From contig NZ_JAUAOA010000001.1 of the NCBI RefSeq assembly GCF_030542965.1, forward strand, positions 310,001-374,000: 64,000 bases of DNA, read 5' to 3'. The notes below the pieces were generated by a model, which worked only from the letters and a program-made list of their open reading frames with translations, was not told the DNA's origin and ran no database searches. A program made the position numbers and the translations under genes. The stretch is from Azotosporobacter soli. Its GTDB lineage: Bacteria > Bacillota > Negativicutes > SG130. Below, in pieces: positions 2,026-57,256 of this stretch; within the stretch, counting starts at the first letter, position 1; each line of letters starts with the position of its first letter.

Positions 2026-5000
2026 TTATCCACGCCCCTTTCTGCCGAACAGTTCGAAGTACAGCAGTGGTACGATTAGCAGCGTCAGACCTGTCGCGGC
2101 CACCGCGCCGAAGATCATCGCAATCGCCAGTCCCTGAAAAATCGGATCGAACAGCATCACGAAGGAACCGACCACCACCGCGGCCGCGGTCAAAAGAATC
2201 GGACGCATTCTGATCGCTCCGGCTTCCGTCAGCGCATCTTCCAACGCTTTCCCGTCTTTGATTTCCGCTTGAACGAAGTCAACCAACAAAATGGAATTGC
2301 GCACGATAATTCCCGACAAGGCAATAAAGCCGATCATCGAGGTGGCGGTAAAGAACGCACCAAATAGCCAATGCCCCGGTAAAATGCCGATCAGCGTAAG
2401 CGGAATCGGCGCCATGATCACGAGCGGCACAAAAAAGTTCTTGAACCAGGCCACCACCAAAATGTAAATCAGCACCAGCACCGCCGCAAACGCAATGCCC
2501 AAATCACGAAACACTTCATACGTGATATGCCATTCGCCGTCCCATTTCAGCGCATAACGGTCTTCCAACCAAGGCTGCGTCGCCGTATATTGCGTCATCG
2601 CATAGCCTTCCGGCAGTTTCAGCTCGGCGATGCGCTCTTTCATTTTCATGATCGCATAGACCGGACTTTCTTCTCCGCCGGCCACGTCGCCAATCACATA
2701 CGTGACCCGTTTCAAATTCTTATGATAAATCGTCTTTTCTTCGCTCTCCCGCTGCGGTTTTGTCAACTCAGCCAGTGAAATCAAATTCCCCTTGGCATCC
2801 GGCAAACGGATCGAAGCAAGATTCATTTCCACAAGCGAAGAGCGCTGCACCGGCGCAAGGCGAAGAAACAGTTCCACCGCTTCTTTTTCCTGCGGAAAGT
2901 GAACCATGCCCACGCTGCCGCCGCTTAACGCAAGATTAACCGCCTGTGCAATCCGCTTGCTGTCCATGCCGTGATAGGCGGCTTTTTCCTGATCCACCAG
3001 ATAGCGCACTTTCGGCTGGTCTTCTTCCACATACCAATCGACATCGACTACGCTGGGCGTCTGATTAAAAATATCTTTTACCTGTCGCGCAATCGCAAGT
3101 TGACGTTTATCGTTCGGCCCGTAAATTTCCGCAACCAAGGTGCTGAGCACAGGCGGCCCCGGCGGAATTTCAACCAACTTGATTCTCGCATTGTACACTT
3201 TGCCAATATCCTGCAGCGGCGCTCGTAATCGTTTGGCAATCGCATGGCTCTGCGCCGAACGCTCCCCTTTCGCGACGAAATTCACCTGAATATCGGCGCT
3301 GCTCGGAGCAAAGCGCAGGAAATAATGGCGCACCAATCCATTGAAATTATAAGGCGAGGCCGTACCAATATACGTTTGAAAGTCCGTCACTTCCGGAACG
3401 GATTTCAAATATTCACCCAAGGCTCTGCTCAGCGCAGCCGTCTCTTCAAGCGGCGCATCCTCCGGCATGTCGATCACGACCTGCAGCTCGCTTTTGTTGT
3501 CAAACGGCAGCATCTTTACCGCGACCGCTTTCAGCGGCAGCAGCAAGACGACGAGCAATAAAAGCACTACGATGCCGCCGATCGCAGCGCGGCGCTGTTT
3601 CTTATTTTCAATCAAGCGACGCAGTAAATTCCGATAGCGCTTTTGCAAATCTCCTTCTTTCATTCCAGTAGAAGCATGCGCAAATACGACTTTGCCCAAG
3701 AGACGATAGCCCAGCCATGGACTGACGATAAAAGCCACCAGTAAGGAGAAAAGCATGGCCGCTGCAGCGCCTACCGGAATCGGCCGCATATACGGCCCCA
3801 TCAAACCGGAAACAAACGCCATCGGCAGCAATGCCGCAATCACGGTAAAGGTAGCCAAAATTGTCGGATTGCCGACTTCGTCCACCGCAGCGGCAGCAGT
3901 TTCTTCGTCCGCTTTTCCGGCTAAGACAAAACGGCGATGCAGATTTTCTACAACCACAATCGCGTCATCCACCAGAATGCCGATGGAGAAAATCAGCGCG
4001 AATAACGTGACCCTGTTCAGCGTGTAGCCAAGCAGATAGCTGGTCAGCAGCGTCAACGCCAATGTCACCGGAACTGCAACGCCGACGACGCCGGCCTCCC
4101 GCCAGCCAAGCGTCAAACCGATCAGCAACACCACCGACAGCGTAGCGATCAGCATATGCTGCAGCAGTTCATTCGATTTGTCCTTCGCGCTCTCGCCATA
4201 ATCGCGCGTCACCGTCAGCTTAATATCCTGCGGCAGTACATCGCCGCGCAACGCTTCCGCTTTGGCCAAGGCCCGCTCGGCTATGCTGGCCGCATTTGCG
4301 CCCTTTTTCTTTGCCAATGACAGCGTCACCGCTTCATGCGGCCCCGCTGAGACGCTCTTACTTACTTTCTCCGGCGCTGTTGCCGCGCCAAGTTCCATAA
4401 AGACATAGCTGTCGGCTTCCCTTGGCCCGTCCTTGATCGCCGCAACCTCGCGCAAATAAATCGGGCGACCATCTCTCACGCCAATTACCAATCCAGCTAC
4501 GTCGGACGGACTGTTTAAAAATGCGCCGCTTTCCAAGCGAATTTCCTTATTGCCAGCCTGCAAACTGCCCGACGCCAGATTACCATTACCGCGTTGCAGC
4601 GCTTCCGCCAGCTGTTCGAGGCTCAGACCGAAAGCAGCCAAACGCGCAGGGTCGGGTTCGATGCGGATCTGACGCCGCTGTCCACCGATCAAATTGATCT
4701 CCGAAACATCTTCATCTTTTTTCAGCTGTTCCGCTAATTCTGCCGCCACCCGCCGCAGTTCGTAACCGCTATAAGCGGAATTCTCGCTCCAAAGCGTCAA
4801 CGCCAGAATCGGCACATCGTCGATTGAGCGCGCCTTGACCAGCGGTTGCGACACGCCGGGCGGAATGCGATCATAATTGGACATCAGTTTATTGTACAAA
4901 CGCACCAAGCTGTCTTCCTGACTTTCGCCCACTTTAAAACGTACGATCGTCAGATTATTGCCCGGTTTAACGATGGAATAGACATATTCGACCCCCTGCA

Positions 5001-5238
5001 GTTCCCAAAGCAATTGCTCCATCGGCTTCGTAACCCGGTTTTCGACTTCCGCCGCACTCGCACCGGGATAGGCGACCTGCACGTCAAGCATCGGCACGAC
5101 AATCTGCGGTTCCTCCTCGCGCGGCGTCAGGCCGACTGCAAAAAGTCCGAGCAACAGCGCTGCCAGCACGAGAATCGGCGTCAGTTTGGAGTTGATGAAA
5201 CTTTGCGCCAGGCGGCCTGACAGTCCGATTTTCTTCAT
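2026..5238 (-). CDS. RND-family efflux transporter, inner-membrane permease
   Basis: A 1070-residue proton-driven RND pump of the AcrB/HAE-like superfamily. It exports small molecules or metals across the envelope together with the adaptor encoded just upstream. The N-terminal membrane segment follows the SGRLAQSFI stretch. The motif IVVPMLDVQVAYPGAS typical of the family comes next, and the transmembrane helix 4 proton-relay pair Asp424-Asp425 sits in GILVDDAIVVVENL. Two large periplasmic loops and a second helix cluster (about 890-1060) complete the usual architecture. The ATG overlaps the adaptor stop in ATGA, indicating translational coupling. No TolC-like outer-membrane gene is adjacent, so one is presumably supplied from elsewhere. 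Substrate unknown. Confidence 0.93.
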   Translation of the reverse strand: MKKIGLSGRLAQSFINSKLTPILVLAALLLGLFAVGLTPREEEPQIVVPMLDVQVAYPGASAAEVENRVTKPMEQLLWELQGVEYVYSIVKPGNNLTIVRFKVGESQEDSLVRLYNKLMSNYDRIPPGVSQPLVKARSIDDVPILALTLWSENSAYSGYELRRVAAELAEQLKKDEDVSEINLIGGQRRQIRIEPDPARLAAFGLSLEQLAEALQRGNGNLASGSLQAGNKEIRLESGAFLNSPSDVAGLVIGVRDGRPIYLREVAAIKDGPREADSYVFMELGAATAPEKVSKSVSAGPHEAVTLSLAKKKGANAASIAERALAKAEALRGDVLPQDIKLTVTRDYGESAKDKSNELLQHMLIATLSVVLLIGLTLGWREAGVVGVAVPVTLALTLLTSYLLGYTLNRVTLFALIFSIGILVDDAIVVVENLHRRFVLAGKADEETAAAAVDEVGNPTILATFTVIAALLPMAFVSGLMGPYMRPIPVGAAAAMLFSLLVAFIVSPWLGYRLLGKVVFAHASTGMKEGDLQKRYRNLLRRLIENKKQRRAAIGGIVVLLLLVVLLLPLKAVAVKMLPFDNKSELQVVIDMPEDAPLEETAALSRALGEYLKSVPEVTDFQTYIGTASPYNFNGLVRHYFLRFAPSSADIQVNFVAKGERSAQSHAIAKRLRAPLQDIGKVYNARIKLVEIPPGPPVLSTLVAEIYGPNDKRQLAIARQVKDIFNQTPSVVDVDWYVEEDQPKVRYLVDQEKAAYHGMDSKRIAQAVNLALSGGSVGMVHFPQEKEAVELFLRLAPVQRSSLVEMNLASIRLPDAKGNLISLAELTKPQRESEEKTIYHKNLKRVTYVIGDVAGGEESPVYAIMKMKERIAELKLPEGYAMTQYTATQPWLEDRYALKWDGEWHITYEVFRDLGIAFAAVLVLIYILVVAWFKNFFVPLVIMAPIPLTLIGILPGHWLFGAFFTATSMIGFIALSGIIVRNSILLVDFVQAEIKDGKALEDALTEAGAIRMRPILLTAAAVVVGSFVMLFDPIFQGLAIAMIFGAVAATGLTLLIVPLLYFELFGRKGRG

Positions 5239-6407
5239 TGAAGATTCACCTCCCGGACCACGCCGCCATCTGCCGCCTCTTCCACTCCTTTCACCACTAC
5301 TTGTTCGCCGTTTTTCAATCCGGCAAGGACTTCTACCTGCCCATCTTGCTTATTTCCCAGACGCACCATCCTGTACCAGATGCGCTTATCCGCATCCACT
5401 ACATAGACGCCCGTCAGTTCCCCTTTGTTGACAACCGCCTCCAGCGGAACCTGCATCGCCTGTCGCTCCGCCAACGCGATTTGCAGCTTGGCGTACAGAC
5501 CTGTATGAATCGCAGGATCTGCGGCCAACGCCACTTTCAGCAAAAATGAGCGACTGGCGCTGTCCACCGCCGGAACGATTTCACTGACTGTCCCGCCAAA
5601 GATCTTTTCCTCCCGCTCCGTGCCAAGCAGCACGCGCACCGGCATCCCTACGGCAACCTTGCCAAGCTGGTTTTCTTCCATATAGGCTTCCACCAGAAAA
5701 GAAGAAGCGTCTTCCACCGTGATCGCCGCCGCCCCCGGCTGCAGCATGCCGCCCACTTCCAAACGTTTTTCCGTCACGATCCCATCCGTCGGCGCGAGCA
5801 AACGCGTATAGCCGTCATACGCTCTGGCTTCCTCCCGCGTCGCTGCCGCCCGGTTCATTCCTTCAGCGGCCTTTTCATATTCCAAGCGGGCAATTTGAGC
5901 TTGCGTTTGTATTTGATCCAATTGTTGACGCGCAATCGCTTCCGATTCAAATAACCGTCGATACCGCTCATAGGTGATTTCCTGCAGTTCAAGATTGCGG
6001 GCTGCCGCTTCCATTCCCTTGCCTGCTTCCCGGTAACCAGCTTCCGCAGCCGCCAGTTTTTGACGGCTATCACTATTTTCCAGCGTAGCCAGCAGTTGCC
6101 CGGCTTTCACTCGCTCGCCGGACTTGACCAACAGCTGCGTCACCATCCCCATGACCTTCGGCGCCACCTGACTGACGGTATGCGCTTTTACTGTGCCGGA
6201 TGTTTCATAATAGTACGGCGTCGCTTGCAATTTCACGCTTTGCACGGTCAGAGACGAAACCGTCTGCGGCGTACTCGCTTCTTTGTTCGTTGCTTTGCCG
6301 CAGCCTATTGCCAATAGCAACATGATGAGGATTCCGCTTAGTAATAAAATTCCTCTTCCCGTTCTCAGCATAGCCAGCCACATCCTTTGCCTTGTTTTTT
6401 CGCGCAA
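5235..6407 (-). CDS. RND periplasmic adaptor (membrane fusion protein), lipoprotein
   Basis: A 390-residue HlyD/AcrA-like adaptor that should link the RND pump to an outer-membrane channel. The N terminus has a basic region, a hydrophobic stretch (about 19-34) and a lipobox-like LAIGC with Cys36, so it is probably lipid-anchored. The first biotinyl-lipoyl half-motif follows at about 75-105 (VKSGERVKAGQLLATLEN), then a coiled-coil hairpin (about 105-195), the second lipoyl half and a beta-barrel (VEAYMEENQLGKVAVG). It is the first gene of a two-gene operon and overlaps the pump gene by four bases. It is divergent from an ArsR gene. An internal ATG at codon 9 is an alternative start. Confidence 0.9.
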   Translation of the reverse strand: MREKTRQRMWLAMLRTGRGILLLSGILIMLLLAIGCGKATNKEASTPQTVSSLTVQSVKLQATPYYYETSGTVKAHTVSQVAPKVMGMVTQLLVKSGERVKAGQLLATLENSDSRQKLAAAEAGYREAGKGMEAAARNLELQEITYERYRRLFESEAIARQQLDQIQTQAQIARLEYEKAAEGMNRAAATREEARAYDGYTRLLAPTDGIVTEKRLEVGGMLQPGAAAITVEDASSFLVEAYMEENQLGKVAVGMPVRVLLGTEREEKIFGGTVSEIVPAVDSASRSFLLKVALAADPAIHTGLYAKLQIALAERQAMQVPLEAVVNKGELTGVYVVDADKRIWYRMVRLGNKQDGQVEVLAGLKNGEQVVVKGVEEAADGGVVREVNLQ

Positions 6408-6494: not shown

Positions 6495-6523
6495 TTGACA
6501 CGGAATTCAGATCCTTGTATTAT
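6495..6523 (+). promoter_or_regulatory. Sigma-A-type promoter of the ArsR/CoA-disulfide-reductase operon
   Basis: TTGACA at 6495-6500 and TATTAT at 6518-6523 with an exact 17-bp spacer. Just downstream an AT-rich imperfect inverted repeat (TATAT and ATATA, 12 bases apart, from about 6523) overlaps the expected start site and is a candidate autoregulatory ArsR operator. Confidence 0.75.
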
Positions 6524-6567
6524 TATATCGTAATAGTTGAATATATCAATGCAAGGAAGTGTTTTTT

Positions 6568-6861
6568 ATGGCGCCCGATGAAAAAAAATATACTGAACTG
6601 GCCGAGCTGCTTAAGGCGCTCGCGCATCCGCTGCGACTTTGCATCGTGCGCGGCTTGATTGAAAACGGCGGTTGCAACGTCACGCACATGCAGGAATGCC
6701 TCGGTGCACCACAGTCTACGATTTCACAGCAGCTGCAAAAATTGCGCGCGGTCGGCATCGTCGAAGGCGCACGCAGCGGCCTTGAGATTCGCTATCGCGT
6801 CTGCGATCCCCGTGTGATCGAACTGATTCGCATTCTCTTTGCCGAAACGGAAGAAAAATAA
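6568..6861 (+). CDS. ArsR-family regulator, probable thiol/persulfide sensor
   Basis: A 97-residue winged-helix repressor. I start it at ATG 6568, where AAGGAAG lies 8 bases upstream; an upstream GTG at 6559 would fall inside that ribosome binding site. The recognition helix region reads APQSTISQQLQKLR. The ELCVCD metal motif of CadC/ArsR is absent; cysteines are Cys25, Cys36, Cys44 and Cys79, so heavy-metal binding through the classical site is unlikely. It is followed 19 bases later by a persulfide-handling fusion protein. Known sulfide-responsive members (SqrR, BigR, YgaV) sit in the same context and use a cysteine pair. A reactive-sulfur sensing role is therefore inferred, not shown. Confidence 0.85.
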   Translation: MAPDEKKYTELAELLKALAHPLRLCIVRGLIENGGCNVTHMQECLGAPQSTISQQLQKLRAVGIVEGARSGLEIRYRVCDPRVIELIRILFAETEEK

Positions 6862-6880
6862 ACCAAGGGAGCTGTTTCTT

Positions 6881-9325
6881 ATGCAGAAAAAAATCGTAAT
6901 CGTCGGCGGCGTTGCCGGCGGCGCATCTGCCGCCGCTCGCATGCGACGCCTCGATGAACAAGCCGAGATCATTATGCTGGAACGCGACGAGCACATCTCG
7001 TTCGCCAACTGCGGTCTGCCCTACTATATCGGCGAAACAATCCAGGAACGGGACAAATTGTTGGTGCAAACACCGGAAGCAATGAAAGCTCGCTTTGCGA
7101 TCGACGTTCGCGTCCACAGCGAAGTCACCGCGATCAATGCCGCTGCCAAGAGCATCACAATCGCCAGCCGCGACAAAGGCGTTTACGAAGAGACTTACGA
7201 TGCGCTGATCCTCTCGCCCGGCGCGAAACCGATCCGGCCGAACATCCCCGGCATCGACAGTCCTCGTATTTTCACACTGCGCAACATTCCCGATACCGAC
7301 CGGATCAAGGCCATCGTCGACCAAGCGGACAGCAAGCGCGCCGTCGTGATCGGCGGCGGCTTCATCGGCGTCGAAATGGCGGAAAACCTGCGCGAACGCG
7401 GCCTTGCAGTCAGCCTCGCCGAAGCCGCACCACACATCCTGCCGCCGTTTGACAGCGACATGGCGCTGCTCGTAGAAAAAGAGCTGCGCGAAAACGGCGT
7501 GGCGCTGCATCTCGGCGACGGCGTAAGCAGTTTCAGCGAGAACGAAAACGAAATCACGGTCACGCTGCAAAGCGGCGTCACACTGACTGCCGACCTTGTA
7601 ATCCTGGCGATCGGCGTGACGCCGGAAACCGGTTTTCTCAAAGACAGCGGCATCGCGCTCGGCAGCCGCGGCCATATCCTGGTCGACGAGCACATGGCCA
7701 CCAATCAGCCGGGGATTTACGCGGTCGGTGACGCCATCGAGGTCAAAGACTTCATCAGTAGCCAAACCACTGCCATCCCTTTGGCCGGACCGGCCAACAA
7801 GCAGGGCCGCATCGCCGCCGATAACATCGCTGGCATCCCCAGTCGTTACAACGGAACGCAGGGCACGTCGATTCTCAAAGTCTTCAGTCTTACCGCCGCC
7901 TCGACCGGCAACAACGAACGCGGCCTGCAGCGCTTAGGCCAGGCATATCAAACAGCCTACATTCATCCGAACTCGCATGCCGCCTATTATCCCGGCGCTT
8001 TGCCGCTGACTTTAAAGCTGCTCTTTGACGGCAACGGTCGCATCCTGGGCGCACAGGCGGTCGGCATTGACGGCGTCGATAAACGGATCGACGTGATCGC
8101 GACGACCATTCGCCTCAAGGGTACGGTCGCCGACCTGACGGAACTCGAATTGTCCTACGCGCCGCCTTACTCTTCGGCGAAAGATCCGGTCAATATGATC
8201 GGCTTTGTCGCGGAAAACATTCTCTCCGGCCGTAGCGACGTCTTCACTTATGAACAATTGGCCTCCTTTGATCGCAGCAAGACGACGCTGCTCGACGTCC
8301 GCTCCGAATTGGAATTTTCCAACGGCCATCTGCCGGGCGCCTTGAACATTCCGGTCGACGAACTGCGGCAGCGCCTGCCCGAACTGAACAAAGAGCAGCT
8401 GATTCTTGCCTATTGCCAGGTCGGCCTGCGCGGTTATATTGCCTCGCGCATCCTCACGCAACACGGCTTCCGCGTGAAAAATCTGACCGGCGGCTACAAG
8501 TCGGCCTCCGTTCAGTTGCCGCAAAAGACGACAGCGCCGCCCGGCATGACGCTTGACGCCGAAACACAGACGGTTCATGTCGCAGCGCAGGAAAGCGCGG
8601 CGCGCACGCTCAACGCCTGCGGCCTTTCCTGCCCTGGCCCCTTGATGCAGGTCAAGGCCGCGCTCGATGAAATGAGCGATGGTCAGATTTTGGAGGTCAC
8701 TGCCTCCGATCCCGGTTTTCCGGAAGACATCCGTGCCTGGTGCCATCGCACCGGCAATCGTCTCCTGGAAACAAAAAAAGAGAAAAGCCATGTCCTCGTC
8801 CGCATCCAAAAGGGCGACGCGTCCGCCAGTGCGGTTCCCGCGGGCGAAAACAGCAAAGACAACAAAACGATCGTCGTCTTCAGCGGCGATCTTGACAAAG
8901 CCTTAGCCGCTTTTGTCATCGCCAACGGCGCCGCCGCGATGGGCAAAAAAGTGACGATGTTCTTCACCTTCTGGGGGCTCAACATCTTGCGCAAACCCGA
9001 AGGCGCGCCTGTTGCCAAAGGCATCATCGACCGCATGTTCGGCTGGATGATGCCGCGCGGCAGCACAAACTTGAAGCTCTCCAACATGCACATGCTGGGC
9101 ATGGGTACCCAGATGATGCGCATGGTCATGAAAGATAAGAACATTTCTTCGCTGGAAGATCTGATGCAAGCCGCGCAAAAATCCGGCATCGAAATCGTCG
9201 CCTGCCAAATGTCGATGGACGTGATGGGGCTAAAACAGGAAGAACTGCTGGACGGCGTCAAAATCGGCGGCGTCGGCTACTACCTCAACGAAGCCGAAGA
9301 CGCCAACGTGAATCTGTTTATTTAA
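6881..9325 (+). CDS. CoA-disulfide reductase / rhodanese / TusA / DsrE fusion
   Basis: An 814-residue four-domain protein for sulfane-sulfur chemistry. Residues 1-450 are an FAD/NAD(P)H pyridine-nucleotide disulfide oxidoreductase with VGGVAGG near the start and the CoA-disulfide-reductase Cys44 in SFANCGLPY. A rhodanese domain follows (about 460-550) with active-site Cys512 in CQVGLRG. A TusA domain (about 575-645) carries Cys584 in the CPGP motif. A DsrE2-like domain (about 660-814) has Cys775 in VACQMSMD. All four catalytic cysteines are present, so sulfur could be relayed within one chain. The start at 6881 is set by AAGGGAG nine bases upstream; a longer in-frame extension overlaps arsR and has no better site. 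Confidence 0.92.
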   Translation: MQKKIVIVGGVAGGASAAARMRRLDEQAEIIMLERDEHISFANCGLPYYIGETIQERDKLLVQTPEAMKARFAIDVRVHSEVTAINAAAKSITIASRDKGVYEETYDALILSPGAKPIRPNIPGIDSPRIFTLRNIPDTDRIKAIVDQADSKRAVVIGGGFIGVEMAENLRERGLAVSLAEAAPHILPPFDSDMALLVEKELRENGVALHLGDGVSSFSENENEITVTLQSGVTLTADLVILAIGVTPETGFLKDSGIALGSRGHILVDEHMATNQPGIYAVGDAIEVKDFISSQTTAIPLAGPANKQGRIAADNIAGIPSRYNGTQGTSILKVFSLTAASTGNNERGLQRLGQAYQTAYIHPNSHAAYYPGALPLTLKLLFDGNGRILGAQAVGIDGVDKRIDVIATTIRLKGTVADLTELELSYAPPYSSAKDPVNMIGFVAENILSGRSDVFTYEQLASFDRSKTTLLDVRSELEFSNGHLPGALNIPVDELRQRLPELNKEQLILAYCQVGLRGYIASRILTQHGFRVKNLTGGYKSASVQLPQKTTAPPGMTLDAETQTVHVAAQESAARTLNACGLSCPGPLMQVKAALDEMSDGQILEVTASDPGFPEDIRAWCHRTGNRLLETKKEKSHVLVRIQKGDASASAVPAGENSKDNKTIVVFSGDLDKALAAFVIANGAAAMGKKVTMFFTFWGLNILRKPEGAPVAKGIIDRMFGWMMPRGSTNLKLSNMHMLGMGTQMMRMVMKDKNISSLEDLMQAAQKSGIEIVACQMSMDVMGLKQEELLDGVKIGGVGYYLNEAEDANVNLFI

Positions 9326-9592: not shown

Positions 9593-9606
9593 AGGGAGGT
9601 CATGTA

Positions 9607-9918
9607 GTGAACATCCTTTTTGAGCCGGCGGTGCTTGATTATCTGCGCCGCAAGGAACCTTCCACCTGCCTGACGCTAAAACTGGCGCAGCAGCCACGCA
9701 GCCTTTGAAGCGGCGGCAGTTGCGGGACTTCTTCTCCCGCCTACCCGTCCGTGCGACGGGGCATGCCGGATAGCGCGTCAGGCTTTGAGAAAACGACCGT
9801 GGATGGCATCACGATCTACTACACCGCAAGCCTCGCCAGAGAATTTAAAACGGTGACCATCGTTTTGGAACGCTTCTTGTTCGTGAAATCCCTGCTGGCC
9901 AGCGGCGAGCGCTATTAA
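9607..9918 (+). CDS. Probable selenoprotein with in-frame TGA (HesB-like / CC-Se motif type)
   Basis: A GTG at 9607 with AAGGGAGGT six bases upstream opens a frame of 104 codons ending in TAA at 9916-9918. It is interrupted only by TGA at codon 34 (9706-9708). Both sides read as one protein: 33 residues before and 69 after, in the same frame, the second half ending in a convincing sequence (VDGITIYY, then ERFLFVKSLLASG). The TGA is followed by SGGSCG, giving a Sec34/Cys39 pair. Length and C-terminal pattern resemble, from memory, the small HesB-like selenoproteins. Hairpins just after the TGA could act as a bacterial SECIS. It closes a sulfur/selenium-type operon. The alternative is a pseudogene with a single nonsense mutation. 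Confidence 0.6.
9722..9760 (+). promoter_or_regulatory. Candidate bacterial SECIS hairpins after the TGA codon
   Basis: Two stem-loops follow the TGA at 9706-9708. The first pairs GCGGGA (9722-9727) with TCCCGC (9735-9740) around a 7-nt loop lacking G. The second pairs CCCGTC (9744-9749) with GACGGG (9755-9760) around the loop CGTGC. The first has suitable spacing but an atypical loop; the second has G and U in the loop but lies somewhat far. Only tentative. Confidence 0.35.
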
Positions 9919-9922
9919 ATGA

Positions 9923-9975
9923 TAGAGGGGCTGTCTCAACGGCATTTTAATCGCCTGTTTGAGACAGCCCCTCTA
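9923..9975. terminator. Bidirectional hairpin terminator between the sulfur operon and cbiK
   Basis: A 17-bp perfect stem (9923-9939 with 9959-9975) around a 19-nt loop, between convergent genes. There is no long T-run on either side, so efficiency is uncertain. The stem contains GGCTGTCTC, shared with the hairpin at 58006-58037. Confidence 0.6.
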
Positions 9976-9995: not shown

Positions 9996-10949
9996 TTATT
10001 CGACAACCGGAATCGCGGGACGATCCGCGCCTCGCTTCGTCTTGTCGTACGTGTTCTCGATCGCATCTTTCACATGCTGCACATAAATGTCCTGAATACC
10101 GCTATTTTCGCCGAGGCCATGCAAATAGGCGTCAACCTTGAAACCGGCTTTGATCAATTGGGACTTGTAAGAGTTCGGTTCATCCCCGGCCATATCATTG
10201 TTCGCATGGTCGCCCGCCACCACCATCAGCGGCATCAGCGTGATCTTTTCCACCTTGTTGGCTTTCGCCTTCGCGATGACGTTCTCAATCGTCGGGTAGC
10301 CATCCACCGTGAAGACATAGACGTTTTTCAGCCCGGCATCCTGCATCTTCAACTGCAGCGCCGCATATGCGGTGTTGGAAGGATGCACGCCGCCGTGTCC
10401 CATAAAGGCGACCGCTTCTTTTTCCGTCAGCTTCGGCAACTGCAGCTTAAGCGCATTGATCGCCAGCGCATAATCATCCGGTTTTTCTTCCTGACCGGTA
10501 AAATAGAAGATCGGACGGCCGAGCGTGAGACGCTCGAAGGATTTCGCTTTCACATGGCTGTCAACAATCTTCAATACTTTGTCGTATTCGTCGCCCGCTT
10601 CCATGTGCAGCGTCTGCACGATGACCTCACTATAGCCTTCCTCTTTCAGTTTTTCGAGCGCCTGTTTTTCCGTGTCCACCTGTCGGTTATCGCGATCCAT
10701 CAGTTTCTTGATGATGATCCGGGAGGTATACGCCTGACGCACTTCATAGTCGGGAAAGGCCGCCTTAACCTTATCGGTTACCGCATCGATCGTCACTTTT
10801 CTGGTATCGTTAAAAGTGGTGCCGAAGCTAACCATCAGTATCGCCTTCTTGCCTGCTTCAGGCGCAGCCAATGCCTGCCCCTGCCCGAACAGGCCGAAAG
10901 ACAGCGTCAGCAATAATAACGTCATTACAAAACAATTTTTCTTCTTCAT
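9996..10949 (-). CDS. cbiK: Exported sirohydrochlorin cobaltochelatase, CbiK family
   Basis: A 317-residue chelatase that inserts cobalt (or another divalent metal) into sirohydrochlorin, a step of anaerobic cobalamin synthesis. The CbiK fold is recognisable from LMVSFGTTFNDTR near the start, the VQTLHMEAGDEY segment, FMGHGGVHPSN and the metal-region motif VVAGDHANNDMAGDE. Unlike the usual cytosolic enzyme it begins with a clear signal peptide (MKKKNC, a hydrophobic stretch, then a site near QALAAPEAG, about residue 29), so it should be periplasmic, as for the Desulfovibrio CbiKP form. GAGGAG lies eight bases upstream of the ATG. It is preceded by a cobalamin riboswitch and leader terminator, so B12 should repress it. 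Confidence 0.93.
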   Translation of the reverse strand: MKKKNCFVMTLLLLTLSFGLFGQGQALAAPEAGKKAILMVSFGTTFNDTRKVTIDAVTDKVKAAFPDYEVRQAYTSRIIIKKLMDRDNRQVDTEKQALEKLKEEGYSEVIVQTLHMEAGDEYDKVLKIVDSHVKAKSFERLTLGRPIFYFTGQEEKPDDYALAINALKLQLPKLTEKEAVAFMGHGGVHPSNTAYAALQLKMQDAGLKNVYVFTVDGYPTIENVIAKAKANKVEKITLMPLMVVAGDHANNDMAGDEPNSYKSQLIKAGFKVDAYLHGLGENSGIQDIYVQHVKDAIENTYDKTKRGADRPAIPVVE

Positions 10950-53820: not shown

Positions 53821-55092
53821 TTAAGGCTTATATAAATAAAAAATCTCCGCCTGCTTTTGAAACTGTTCCGCTTCCCGCTTCCAAAACGTCTTTATTTCTT
53901 CCAGACTATAACGTCCGCTGCGCAGCCGGTCTTCGCCGCTGATCAGATCGATCATGCCTTCACCGTAACCTCGGTTGTAACGGAAGTCCACGCCGCCGCT
54001 CTCTTTGATCTGATAGAGCAGCGTAAGCGCCGTCTCGAGTGCACGATACTTTTTCGCATCCGTCACGTGGATCTGTACGCCGCCGCAGACTTCGCCCTGG
54101 TACAATCCGAAACGGGGCACAAAATACGCTGCGCGAAAATGCACACCGGGAAGTTTTTTCGCATTCATGTCATCGGCCAGGCTGTCGGCTCTCAACCACG
54201 GCGCACCAACAAGTTCGAACGGACGCGTCGTACCCACCCCTTCGGAGACGTTCGTGCCGCCGAACAGTCCGGTGCCCGAATAGACCAGTGCGCTATCGGG
54301 CGTAGGTATGTTCGGCGACGTCATGATCCAGGGCAGTCCGGTATCGGCAAACAGCATACTGCGCCGCCAGCCGGTCATCGGCACGACTTCGAGCTTGCAA
54401 TGAATGCCGAACGACTCATTGAACAGACGCGCCAATTCGCCGACGGTCATGCCATGCCGGATTGGAATCGGATACATGCCGATGAACGAAGTGAAGCCCG
54501 GTTTGAGCACCGGCCCCTCCACCATTCCGCCCGCTGGATTGGGCCGGTCAAAGACGACGAAGGTCTTCCCCTGTTCACGACAGCTCTCCATAGCATAGGC
54601 CATCGTATAAATATAAGTATAGGAACGCGAACCGACATCCTGAATGTCAAACGCCAGCACATCGATGTCGGCGAGCATCGCCGCGCTCGGTTTCTTCGTA
54701 TCGCCGTACAGGCTGTAGACCGGCAGTCCGCTGCGTAAGTCGGTATAGGAGCCGACCGCTTCGCCGGCCGGACGATCGCCCCAAAGCCCATGCTCAGGCG
54801 AGTAGAGCGTCGTCAGATTGGTCTTGGCTGCCAACACCTCGACGCTCGACTTGTAATCGCTCGTCATTCCGGTCGCGTTGGTGATCAAGCCTACGCGCTT
54901 ACCCGCAAAAAGCGGCAGGTACTGATCCAGATTATCGATGCCCAGCCTGACCACCGTTTTCTCCGGCGCTGCAGTTACTTGAACTAAGGGCGGCGCAGCC
55001 TTGGGGGGCAATTTCGCCGCTTCCGCGCCCGCCGTGAAGAAGGCCAGACTGCCAAGCAGCAACGCCAGCAAGCAACCGTTTCTCTTATCCAT
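53821..55092 (-). CDS. DUF1343 exo-N-acetylmuramidase (NamZ-like)
   Basis: A 423-residue secreted protein of the DUF1343 family, in which B. subtilis NamZ (YbbC) releases terminal N-acetylmuramic acid from peptidoglycan fragments. A signal peptide (GCLLALLLGSLAFFTAGAEA, then A) precedes the mature domain. Motifs seen are GLITNATGM, YSPEHGLWGD, FDIQDVGSRSYTYIYTM, FDRPNPAGG and TSPNIPTPDSALVYSGTGLF. It probably serves wall-fragment recycling with other wall genes nearby. It is monocistronic, with its stop near 53821 and no obvious terminator beyond the small gene. Confidence 0.9.
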   Translation of the reverse strand: MDKRNGCLLALLLGSLAFFTAGAEAAKLPPKAAPPLVQVTAAPEKTVVRLGIDNLDQYLPLFAGKRVGLITNATGMTSDYKSSVEVLAAKTNLTTLYSPEHGLWGDRPAGEAVGSYTDLRSGLPVYSLYGDTKKPSAAMLADIDVLAFDIQDVGSRSYTYIYTMAYAMESCREQGKTFVVFDRPNPAGGMVEGPVLKPGFTSFIGMYPIPIRHGMTVGELARLFNESFGIHCKLEVVPMTGWRRSMLFADTGLPWIMTSPNIPTPDSALVYSGTGLFGGTNVSEGVGTTRPFELVGAPWLRADSLADDMNAKKLPGVHFRAAYFVPRFGLYQGEVCGGVQIHVTDAKKYRALETALTLLYQIKESGGVDFRYNRGYGEGMIDLISGEDRLRSGRYSLEEIKTFWKREAEQFQKQAEIFYLYKP

Positions 55093-55126
55093 ACTCTCTT
55101 CGCCTCGCTTTCCGCCTTAAAAAGAA

Positions 55127-55152
55127 AAGCGCCCGCCTGCCGGCAGGCGCTT
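55127..55152 (-). terminator. Terminator after the Rossmann-chemoreceptor gene
   Basis: On the minus strand AAGCGCCTGCCGG/CAGGC...GCGCTT forms a GC-rich stem with a small bulge, followed by TTCTTTTT. It lies 5 bases from the stop codon. Confidence 0.7.
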
Positions 55153-55157
55153 CTCTC

Positions 55158-55844
55158 TTAGCGTATCCCTGTGATTAATTCTTCGCCAGCGTGTTTTTCG
55201 GTCACGCGGGCCGTTTCTTCGATGCCGGTGATGATGCCCTGCATTGAGTTTTCGATGTTTTGCAGGATCGTGTTGATCTTTTTGGTCGCTTCCACACTGT
55301 CTTCGGCCAGTTTGCGCACTTCATTCGCGACTACCGCGAAACCGCGTCCCTGTTCGCCTGCACGCGCCGCTTCGATCGCGGCGTTAAGGCCGAGCAGATT
55401 GGTCTGCTGCGAGACCTTATTGATGAAACCGATCACCTCATGCGTATTGCTGATATGGCCTTTCGCGTCATTGACCGACTTCGTCAGCACTTCGACCTTG
55501 CCATGCAATTCTTCCTGCATCAGCGTTTGCGATTTCACCAGATGATACATCATTTGCGCAATAAACGCGTCGACCAGTTTTACACCCTCGCCCTTATGCT
55601 CTTCGATCAGGCGATTTACTTCCTCATTGCCGGTAATATTCAGGACAACCGTAACCGCTTCCAGTTTCAGCGCCTCTTTCACATCGGCAAAGGTACGGAT
55701 GCCCAGCTTTTTCGCCAACTGGATCGCAACCGCCTCGCTTTTCGGATCTACGACCCCGACGACCGACACGTCCTTTACCTTGCGGCACAATTCAAGAATT
55801 CCCGCGCCGCCGCGGCCGCCGCCTACCAATAACACATTGATCAC
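55158..55844 (-). CDS. Rossmann-fold domain fused to a short chemoreceptor signalling domain
   Basis: A 228-residue soluble fusion. The first 100 residues are an NAD(P)-binding-like Rossmann domain: VGGGRGGAG at 7-15, Asp33 at the end of beta-2, and [13 protein letters not shown]. The rest is a truncated methyl-accepting signalling domain with the hairpin-tip sequence [18 protein letters not shown] at about 155-172. The domain has only about 110 residues, so adaptation regions are incomplete. No membrane segment is present. It begins at GTG 55844, which overlaps the stop of a 60-codon cysteine frame, and GGAGGG is six bases upstream. Likely a cytosolic receptor sensing a nucleotide or redox state. 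Confidence 0.88.
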
Positions 55845-56023
55845 GCCATACCCTCCCCATTCTCGTCAAACGCTGTAAGCAAAAGACTGCCGCAGGTTTC
55901 AAGCTGCCGCAAGAGCAGACGTTCCCGTTTTTGCAAACGATCACTCCGTCCACAGCAGTTGAAGCCTTCACAGCAGTCTCTGGCTCCGATTATGACAGCG
56001 CCGCCCTCCGGCAAATATTGCAA
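55841..56023 (-). CDS. Possible small CC-CC protein translationally coupled to the Rossmann receptor
   Basis: A 60-codon TTG-initiated frame ending in TGA that overlaps the receptor's GTG. It has a double pair of cysteines ([10 protein letters not shown], residues about 17-26) and one more Cys, followed by a charged amphipathic helix. A TATAAT about 15 bases upstream leaves almost no leader, and no clear ribosome binding site precedes the TTG. It could be a real small protein or merely leader sequence; the codons look coding-like. Confidence 0.35.
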
Positions 56024-56080
56024 ATATTGCGATGAAACCTATTATACTATATTACTGCAGCGCCGCACAGTATCTTTAAT

Positions 56081-57256
56081 TTATTTCACCCGACTAAGAC
56101 GACGTGATTGCTGCAAGCGCTCACGCACCCCACCGGGCAGAGTCGCTTCCGGTTCCGCAGGACGGACGCCCTGCCGATTGACATTCAGCAGAAGGCCGAT
56201 CGCCGTCATATTCACCAGGAGCGACGTTCCGCCGAAACTGATGAACGGCAGCGGCACGCCGACCACCGGCAAGAGGTTCGTGACCATCGCCATATTGATC
56301 ATTCCCTGTCCGACGATCAGAAAAACGACGCCCATCGCAAGGAATTTTCCGTATGCATCGCGCGCCTGTAGTGCAATCTTGATGCCATGGTAACCAAGCG
56401 CAAGAAAAAGCAGCAGCACCGCCGCCGCGCCGACAAAGCCCATTTCCTGGCAGAGTACGGCAAATGCGAAGTCGGTATGCGCTTCCGGCAGATAATCGAA
56501 CTTGCTCGCACCCATGCCGAGGCCCGAACCCCAAAAGCCGCCGGAACCGATCGCCAAGAGCCCCTGCACGGCCTGATAGCCGATGCCGTCCTTAAAATCC
56601 CAGGGATTCTGCCAGGCATAGTAGCGCTCTGCGCGGTAGGCGGCCGAAAACGTCAGATAGTAGCCCAGACCGCCGCCGATCGCGCCAAGGATCACCAAGT
56701 ACTCGAACGCCATTCCGCCCAGCACCTGCAGGCCAAGCGCGATTCCGACGATGATCACGGCCGTCCCCATGTCCGGCTGCTTCAGGACGATCCCGCCCAA
56801 CAGCAGCGCCAGTAAGAGCGGCGCCGTAAAGAGCGGTATCCTGCGCCCGCGCTCCGCCAAGCGGCCGAGATAAACCGCGCTGAACAGCATCACGGTGAAT
56901 TTTGCCAGTTCCGACGGCTGAAACTGAAAGCCGAGATTCAGCCAACGTCTTGCGCCGTTGACCTCGACGCCGATAAAATGAACGGCAACGAGCATCGCGA
57001 ACGTGACCAGGCCGAGCGGAAAAACGGCATTTTGCCAACGCTTATAATCGGTTCGGATCATGATCAGCATAAAGAGCATGCCGATCGCCGCCGATAAGAG
57101 ATGGCGCTTCAAAAAATAATAACTGTCGCCTAAATTTTGTCCCGCATGAACAAAGCTCGCACTGAAAATATTAAGCGCGCCGAACATGAAGAGCAGCAGC
57201 GTAATCCAGCCTACGGCCTCACCGTGGCTCACCCACAAACGCGGCAGCCATTTCAT
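56081..57256 (-). CDS. FtsW/RodA/SpoVE-family peptidoglycan glycosyltransferase
   Basis: A 391-residue SEDS protein with about ten transmembrane helices that polymerises lipid II. Family motifs are GVEVNGARRWLNLGF, FQPSELAKF, QPDMGTAVI, LPEAHTDFAFAVLCQEMG and GVPLPFISFGGTSL. The GARRWL loop, the conserved Asp of QPDMGTA and the last motif point to FtsW or SpoVE and not RodA. It lies downstream of the trmB gene and may pair with the class B PBP at 51472. No clear operon partner is adjacent: trmB is 22 bases upstream, so the two could be cotranscribed. Confidence 0.92.
   Translation of the reverse strand: MKWLPRLWVSHGEAVGWITLLLFMFGALNIFSASFVHAGQNLGDSYYFLKRHLLSAAIGMLFMLIMIRTDYKRWQNAVFPLGLVTFAMLVAVHFIGVEVNGARRWLNLGFQFQPSELAKFTVMLFSAVYLGRLAERGRRIPLFTAPLLLALLLGGIVLKQPDMGTAVIIVGIALGLQVLGGMAFEYLVILGAIGGGLGYYLTFSAAYRAERYYAWQNPWDFKDGIGYQAVQGLLAIGSGGFWGSGLGMGASKFDYLPEAHTDFAFAVLCQEMGFVGAAAVLLLFLALGYHGIKIALQARDAYGKFLAMGVVFLIVGQGMINMAMVTNLLPVVGVPLPFISFGGTSLLVNMTAIGLLLNVNRQGVRPAEPEATLPGGVRERLQQSRRLSRVK

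Follow-up and report, generated by a model that had tools for sequence, protein, structure and literature searches.

Genomic context of a small gene with an in-frame TGA

Inspection of the window, by which we mean the whole 64,000-nucleotide stretch of Azotosporobacter soli DNA that was analyzed, places a small gene on the plus strand at 9607-9918 that begins with GTG, carries an in-frame TGA at codon 34 (9706-9708) and terminates at TAA. With the TGA translated as selenocysteine (Sec34), the predicted selenoprotein comprises 103 residues (11 kDa) and reads VNILFEPAVLDYLRRKEPSTCLTLKLAQQPRSLU-SGGSCGTSSPAYPSVRRGMPDSASGFEKTTVDGITIYYTASLAREFKTVTIVLERFLFVKSLLASGERY. The GTG aligns with the starts of homologues, and a ribosome binding site recognized from the sequence (AGGGAGG, 9593-9599, plus strand; AAAGGGAGG) ends 7 nt ahead of it. 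A first-pass annotation of this DNA had described the open frame across the TGA, the TAA end, the 103-residue length and the good ribosome binding site in the same way.

The gene is the last of a probable plus-strand operon headed by an ArsR/SmtB-family regulator (6559-6861; NF033788, 76.2 bits against a cut-off of 55), ahead of which lies a promoter-like site, TTGACA-17-TATTAT, at 6495-6523 on the same strand, a consensus match only. The regulator is followed by a gene at 6839-9325 encoding a fusion of a CoA-disulfide-reductase-like flavoprotein with rhodanese, TusA and DsrE2 domains; 6839 is a mechanical ORF start, and the true start may be an internal ATG. A TSCPD-domain protein with four cysteines (TIGR03905, 9344-9592) lies directly upstream of the selenoprotein gene, and the last two intergenic gaps measure 18 and 14 nt. 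Beyond the ArsR end, an RND pump with its adaptor occupies 2026-6407 on the minus strand. Directly 3' of the selenoprotein gene is a perfect 16-bp inverted repeat, AGAGGGGCTGTCTCAA (9924-9939 and 9959-9974), with a 19-nt loop and no T-run; it occurs once in the window and could be a terminator or the remnant of a mobile element. A putative exported CbiK-like protein, judged by eye to be of the sirohydrochlorin cobaltochelatase type, is encoded on the minus strand at 9996-10949 and faces the operon.

A divergent branch of the NF041239 family

The first-pass annotation had called the second half of the product protein-like, and residues 35-99, all behind the TGA, indeed match NCBIfam NF041239, "CC/Se motif family (seleno)protein" (36.8 bits, E 3e-9). 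This is the sole NCBIfam model matched by the window protein, which scores 36.2 bits in a genome-wide family search and in neither case reaches the curated cut-off of 40 bits. Within the branch, four homologues do pass that cut-off, with 60.5, 53.4, 51.6 and 42.0 bits. Full-length homologues share 32-47% identity and run past residue 33, with TGA or a Cys codon where the window gene has codon 34, as the first-pass annotation had anticipated. TGA occupies this position in nearly 30 homologues of the branch and Cys in others (L082, L086, L117, L072 and L055 among them). The surrounding motifs vary (GGVUSGGNCGQ, GGVUGGGNCG, GSCUGGGC, GSVUKGGRE and others) with TGA in the same column, and the only invariant columns among 24 aligned members are the start, Tyr12 and Sec/Cys34. 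A profile of the branch matches 48 of 380 genomes of the class, with exactly one TGA at most of the top-scoring places; a scan of genome contigs yielded one locus and a plasmid scan none. Because the part behind the TGA matches NF041239 and full-length homologues carry TGA or Cys at the same codon, sequence comparison confirms that the gene is real, far beyond chance.

The window protein shares with NF041239 its length, its domain, Sec or Cys at the aligned position and the PSVRLG segment. It differs in having Leu33-Sec34 rather than a C-C or C-U pair, and in an insert with Cys39 (USGGSC); Val or Ala precedes Sec in many members of the branch. A review (PMC13188914) lists NF041239 (Moor_selen_rel) among known selenoprotein families. 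Owing to this listing, to the NF041239 match and to the branch members above cut-off, the gene belongs on sequence grounds to a divergent branch of a selenoprotein family that was catalogued before, not to a wholly new one, and the proposal that it was new is not supported at family level, where NF041239 already covers close relatives. What sets it apart is that it is outside both the curated cut-off and the motif of this nearest family and has a SECIS-like hairpin at an unusual distance. Standard annotation would lose the gene at 9607-9918, and the NF041239 model just misses its product.

A redox pair of Sec34 and Cys39 had also been suggested. Both residues are present, but the motif is U34-SGGS-C39, with four residues between rather than five, and Cys39 is found in the USGGxC sub-branch and missing from several others, so the pair is no general feature of the branch. 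We also compared the protein with the HesB-like selenoprotein TIGR01911, likewise a small single-domain selenoprotein and probably of the same fold class. The window protein does not match that model, the best homologue reaches 17.4 bits against a cut-off of 66.35, and the Sec motif listed for the HesB-like selenoprotein is UxGP as opposed to USGGSC.

A conserved hairpin downstream of the TGA codon

The first-pass annotation had singled out 9700-9765 for bSECIS prediction, and a bSECIS-like hairpin lies inside that stretch at 9744-9760 on the plus strand. It consists of a 6-bp stem (CCCGUC, 9744-9749; GACGGG, 9755-9760) closed by the 5-nt loop CGUGC (9750-9754), with a folding energy of -10.6 kcal/mol. 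The 6-pair stem, the 5-nt loop and the G at loop position 2 followed by U are shared with the bacterial SECIS consensus as given in PMC13188914, where the loop rule is N-G-[G/U].

The hairpin coincides with the PSVRLG segment, and its codons are constrained at the RNA level. TGA-bearing genes keep the nucleotides CCR TCC GTG NGA YTG GG here, and the core CCR-TCC-GTG-NGA is found in 52 of 64 TGA members versus 1 of 60 Cys members, the latter encoding the same residues with TCT GTA CGC, AGC GTT CGC, TCC GTC CGG and other codons. Among 29 TGA members of the branch, Val49 is GTG in all 29 and Ser48 is TCC in 27 of 28, in contrast to the mixed codons of most remaining Val, Arg, Leu and Gly columns. 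Synonymous variation drops sharply at residues 47-51 and is also low at Gly41, unlike over most of the gene. The family consensus, CCCRUC-CGUGN-GAY(U)GGG, leaves 98.7% of cells paired, and pairing drops to 26-53% when the stem register is slid. The two arms also covary: CCG usually accompanies CTG, and CCA usually accompanies TTG, the combination of CCA and CTG being absent. There are 7 double changes among distinct rows, and the covariation score is reached by 0 of 500 shuffles.

The fixed hairpin provides a specific DNA signature, CCRTCCGTGNGANKGG, that finds the selenoprotein family directly in raw genomes. This pattern occurs at 59 places in 150 genomes, all but five of them family genes, compared to about 12 for a reversed control, and its single place in the A. 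soli genome is the window gene. General searches were less informative. Run on the TGA plus 75 nt under bSECIS limits of the published kind, a generic hairpin finder did not separate the genes from their shuffles (mean shuffle fraction 0.33), in part since the start of the conserved hairpin frequently falls outside the range of the finder; comparison of codons proved decisive. The minimum free energy of 9706-9775 as a whole is unremarkable (z -0.88), and in some minimum-energy folds the SGG codons form an outer stem with the PSV codons. Rfam SECIS_1 matched nowhere, controls included, and is therefore uninformative; an Rfam scan of the stretch returned chance matches only.

The sole Cys member with the hairpin core is L086, in which TGT replaces TGA; it is apparently a recent Sec-to-Cys conversion that retained the hairpin. 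Together with L056, L082 and L096, it belongs to a set of Cys-bearing or Cys-less genes in which all or part of the hairpin sequence is still there, apparent recent losses of Sec. A second NF041239 gene of the same genome (L005, C3:89050-89322) has CC instead of Sec; like other Cys copies it no longer keeps the hairpin codons, which have decayed to TCG GTT CGC. One homologue (L060/L127, G110:C128:200-490) contains two in-frame TGAs, the second within the hairpin (GTG TGA), where it arises from T at the N of NGA; it may be a double-Sec gene or a decaying copy.

Spacer length and a second hairpin

According to PMC13188914, the apical loop of bSECIS elements lies 16-37 nt from the UGA, a rule for most but not all known elements. 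The window hairpin departs from it, with 41 nt between TGA and loop, and the family spans 23-41 nt. Counted as the position of the first loop base after UGA, hence 23 to 41 nt between, the loop starts at 24 in the CU branch (15 genes), at 30 in 18 genes, at 33 in one, at 36 in 8, at 39 in 10 and at 42 in 3, the window gene among these. The family forms a natural series of SECIS elements whose spacers lengthen stepwise, and this series, together with the retained hairpin of L086, makes both the spacing rule and the Sec/Cys exchange directly testable.

Closer inspection of the long spacers of the family reveals a further hairpin, which likewise distinguishes the window gene from the published bacterial SECIS model. 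In the window it pairs GCGGGA with UCCCGC at 9722-9740 on the plus strand, between the TGA and the SECIS-like hairpin (z -3.5 for 9720-9743). The mean shuffle fraction is 0.82 for 24-base spacers, indicating no structure, versus 0.10-0.16 for those of 36-42, which are structured, and Gly41, in the 5' arm of the spacer hairpin, is GGG in 16 of 18 cases. Without the spacer hairpin, about 22 nt are left between UGA and loop in the window, and we infer that this shortened effective spacing matters for SelB. Taken further, the family would use a two-hairpin SECIS in which the loop sequence (UCCGUGNGA) is fixed family-wide while the UGA distance lengthens codon by codon, from 23 to 41 nt, the extra length being folded into an in-frame spacer hairpin. 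We give this model even odds; if true, it would extend the bacterial SECIS spacing rule and explain missed selenoprotein genes. Across titles, abstracts and selected passages of the open-licence literature, we found no earlier report of the family-wide hairpin or of the spacer hairpin.

Selenium machinery and decoding of codon 34

The A. soli genome was searched for selA, selB, selC and selD, as the first-pass annotation had proposed, and all are present. selA and selB are adjacent (C12:53301-54647 and 54686-56521), tRNA-Sec with anticodon UCA lies at C6:47472-47565, and selD (L001, C12:71253-72179) itself contains one in-frame TGA, which makes SelD a probable selenoprotein as well. Among the family-bearing genomes of a 150-genome set, selA is present in 24 of 27 with a TGA copy compared to 3 of 22 with Cys copies only (Fisher p 9e-8, a value that overstates independence because the family members are related by descent). 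The three exceptions (G073, G090 and G134) have a TGA copy and no selA match at E 1e-50, which may reflect an assembly gap or lost machinery.

We infer, with a probability of about 0.92, that the UGA at codon 34 is read as Sec, and the selenoprotein reading of the first-pass annotation is accordingly upheld. The possibility that the TGA is a true stop, so that the locus yields a peptide of 33 residues or is a dead gene whose downstream frame is decaying, gains some appeal from TGA being a normal stop in table 11 and from the genome-wide family match beginning only past it. This reading is largely refuted, and very improbable, given that TGA recurs at the same codon across many genera with the frame behind it still conserved, that this position holds almost only TGA or Cys, and that RNA-level constraint behind the TGA is accompanied by complete Sec machinery. 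A UGA read through without Sec, for instance by near-cognate Trp, would cast the conserved hairpin as a read-through stimulator and would suit its 41-nt distance from the UGA, past the published bSECIS range. Homologues substitute Cys, however, and not Trp; TGA copies in the family go with selA, the loop fits the N-G-[G/U] rule, and the same hairpin sits within normal range in nearer-spaced members, leaving little room for this explanation.

Nor do we give much credence to the idea that the invariant codons reflect codon bias or protein-level constraint on PSVRLG with no RNA element. The TGA branch does conserve this peptide well, as this idea would have it, yet Cys relatives use other codons for the same residues (TCT GTA CGC, AGC GTT CGC), Arg-to-Gly changes retain the GA of the stem (GGA), the CCG/CTG and CCA/TTG partners mostly stay matched, and codon use is mixed in most remaining Val, Arg, Leu and Gly columns. 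Under the preferred selenocysteine reading, the hairpin at 9744-9760, with its CGUGC loop, would direct SelB and tRNA-Sec(UCA) to decode the UGA, and the second hairpin folded from the spacer would probably shorten the effective distance of this loop to about 22 nt.

Predicted fold and possible function

An AF2 model built on the 24-member alignment has a pTM of 0.76 and a pLDDT of 87.8, which falls to 56 in the Sec loop (residues 31-40). Its ten best solved-structure matches, at Z 6.1-8.9, are IscA, SufA, DsrR and further proteins of HesB type; the next chain, an unrelated one, follows at 3.3. Pfam Fe-S_biosyn (PF01521) matches 9 of the 24 members weakly, below the gathering score in those examined; homologues reach at best 23.2 against a gathering score of 26.3, and the window protein has no match. 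A PDB sequence search with the family profile found nothing, and hhalign against one E. coli IscA sequence aligned only 14 residues. On the basis of the AF2 model and the weak Pfam matches, the protein is predicted to have an IscA/HesB fold, modeled as shared with IscA/SufA (PF01521) and with DsrR of Allochromatium vinosum at Z 8.4-8.9. The product would be a single domain of this type with Sec34 in a flexible loop, and Cys39, in the USGGxC sub-branch, is a possible partner thiol. The first-pass annotation had drawn a link to YedF from neighboring domain types only, and this does not extend to the selenoprotein itself: TusA and DsrE belong to the upstream gene, whereas the selenoprotein has a predicted IscA/HesB fold.

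The predicted IscA/SufA fold and the weak PF01521 matches in 9 of 24 members would also suit a selenoprotein serving as an iron-sulfur carrier or scaffold. We consider this role unlikely, as the protein differs from IscA/SufA in lacking the C-terminal Cys-x-Cys ligands (the window protein has no Cys near its C-terminus), in falling below the Pfam gathering score and in its operon context, and the neighbors seen are efflux and ArsR genes. Genes that recur next to homologues encode ArsR, an ArsP_1 permease, an ArsE-like Thioredoxin_3 protein, TauE, a cation-efflux protein or an RND pump. The sulfur-operon partners of the window are mostly not found beside homologues, where ArsR genes recur instead, and the fusion gene is thus no obligate partner. 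Due to these recurrent neighbors (ArsR, ArsP_1, ArsE-like, efflux), the best-supported function is defense against metal(loid) or sulfur stress by a selenol protein under an ArsR regulator, an assignment that is tentative and to which we give slightly less than an even chance. In such a role, the selenol would most likely bind or reduce a soft metal(loid) or a sulfane-sulfur or disulfide species under ArsR control, and in A. soli the selenoprotein may act together with the CoA-disulfide reductase/rhodanese/TusA/DsrE2 fusion. The neighborhood suggests that defense against metal(loid) or sulfur stress has a selenium-dependent branch.
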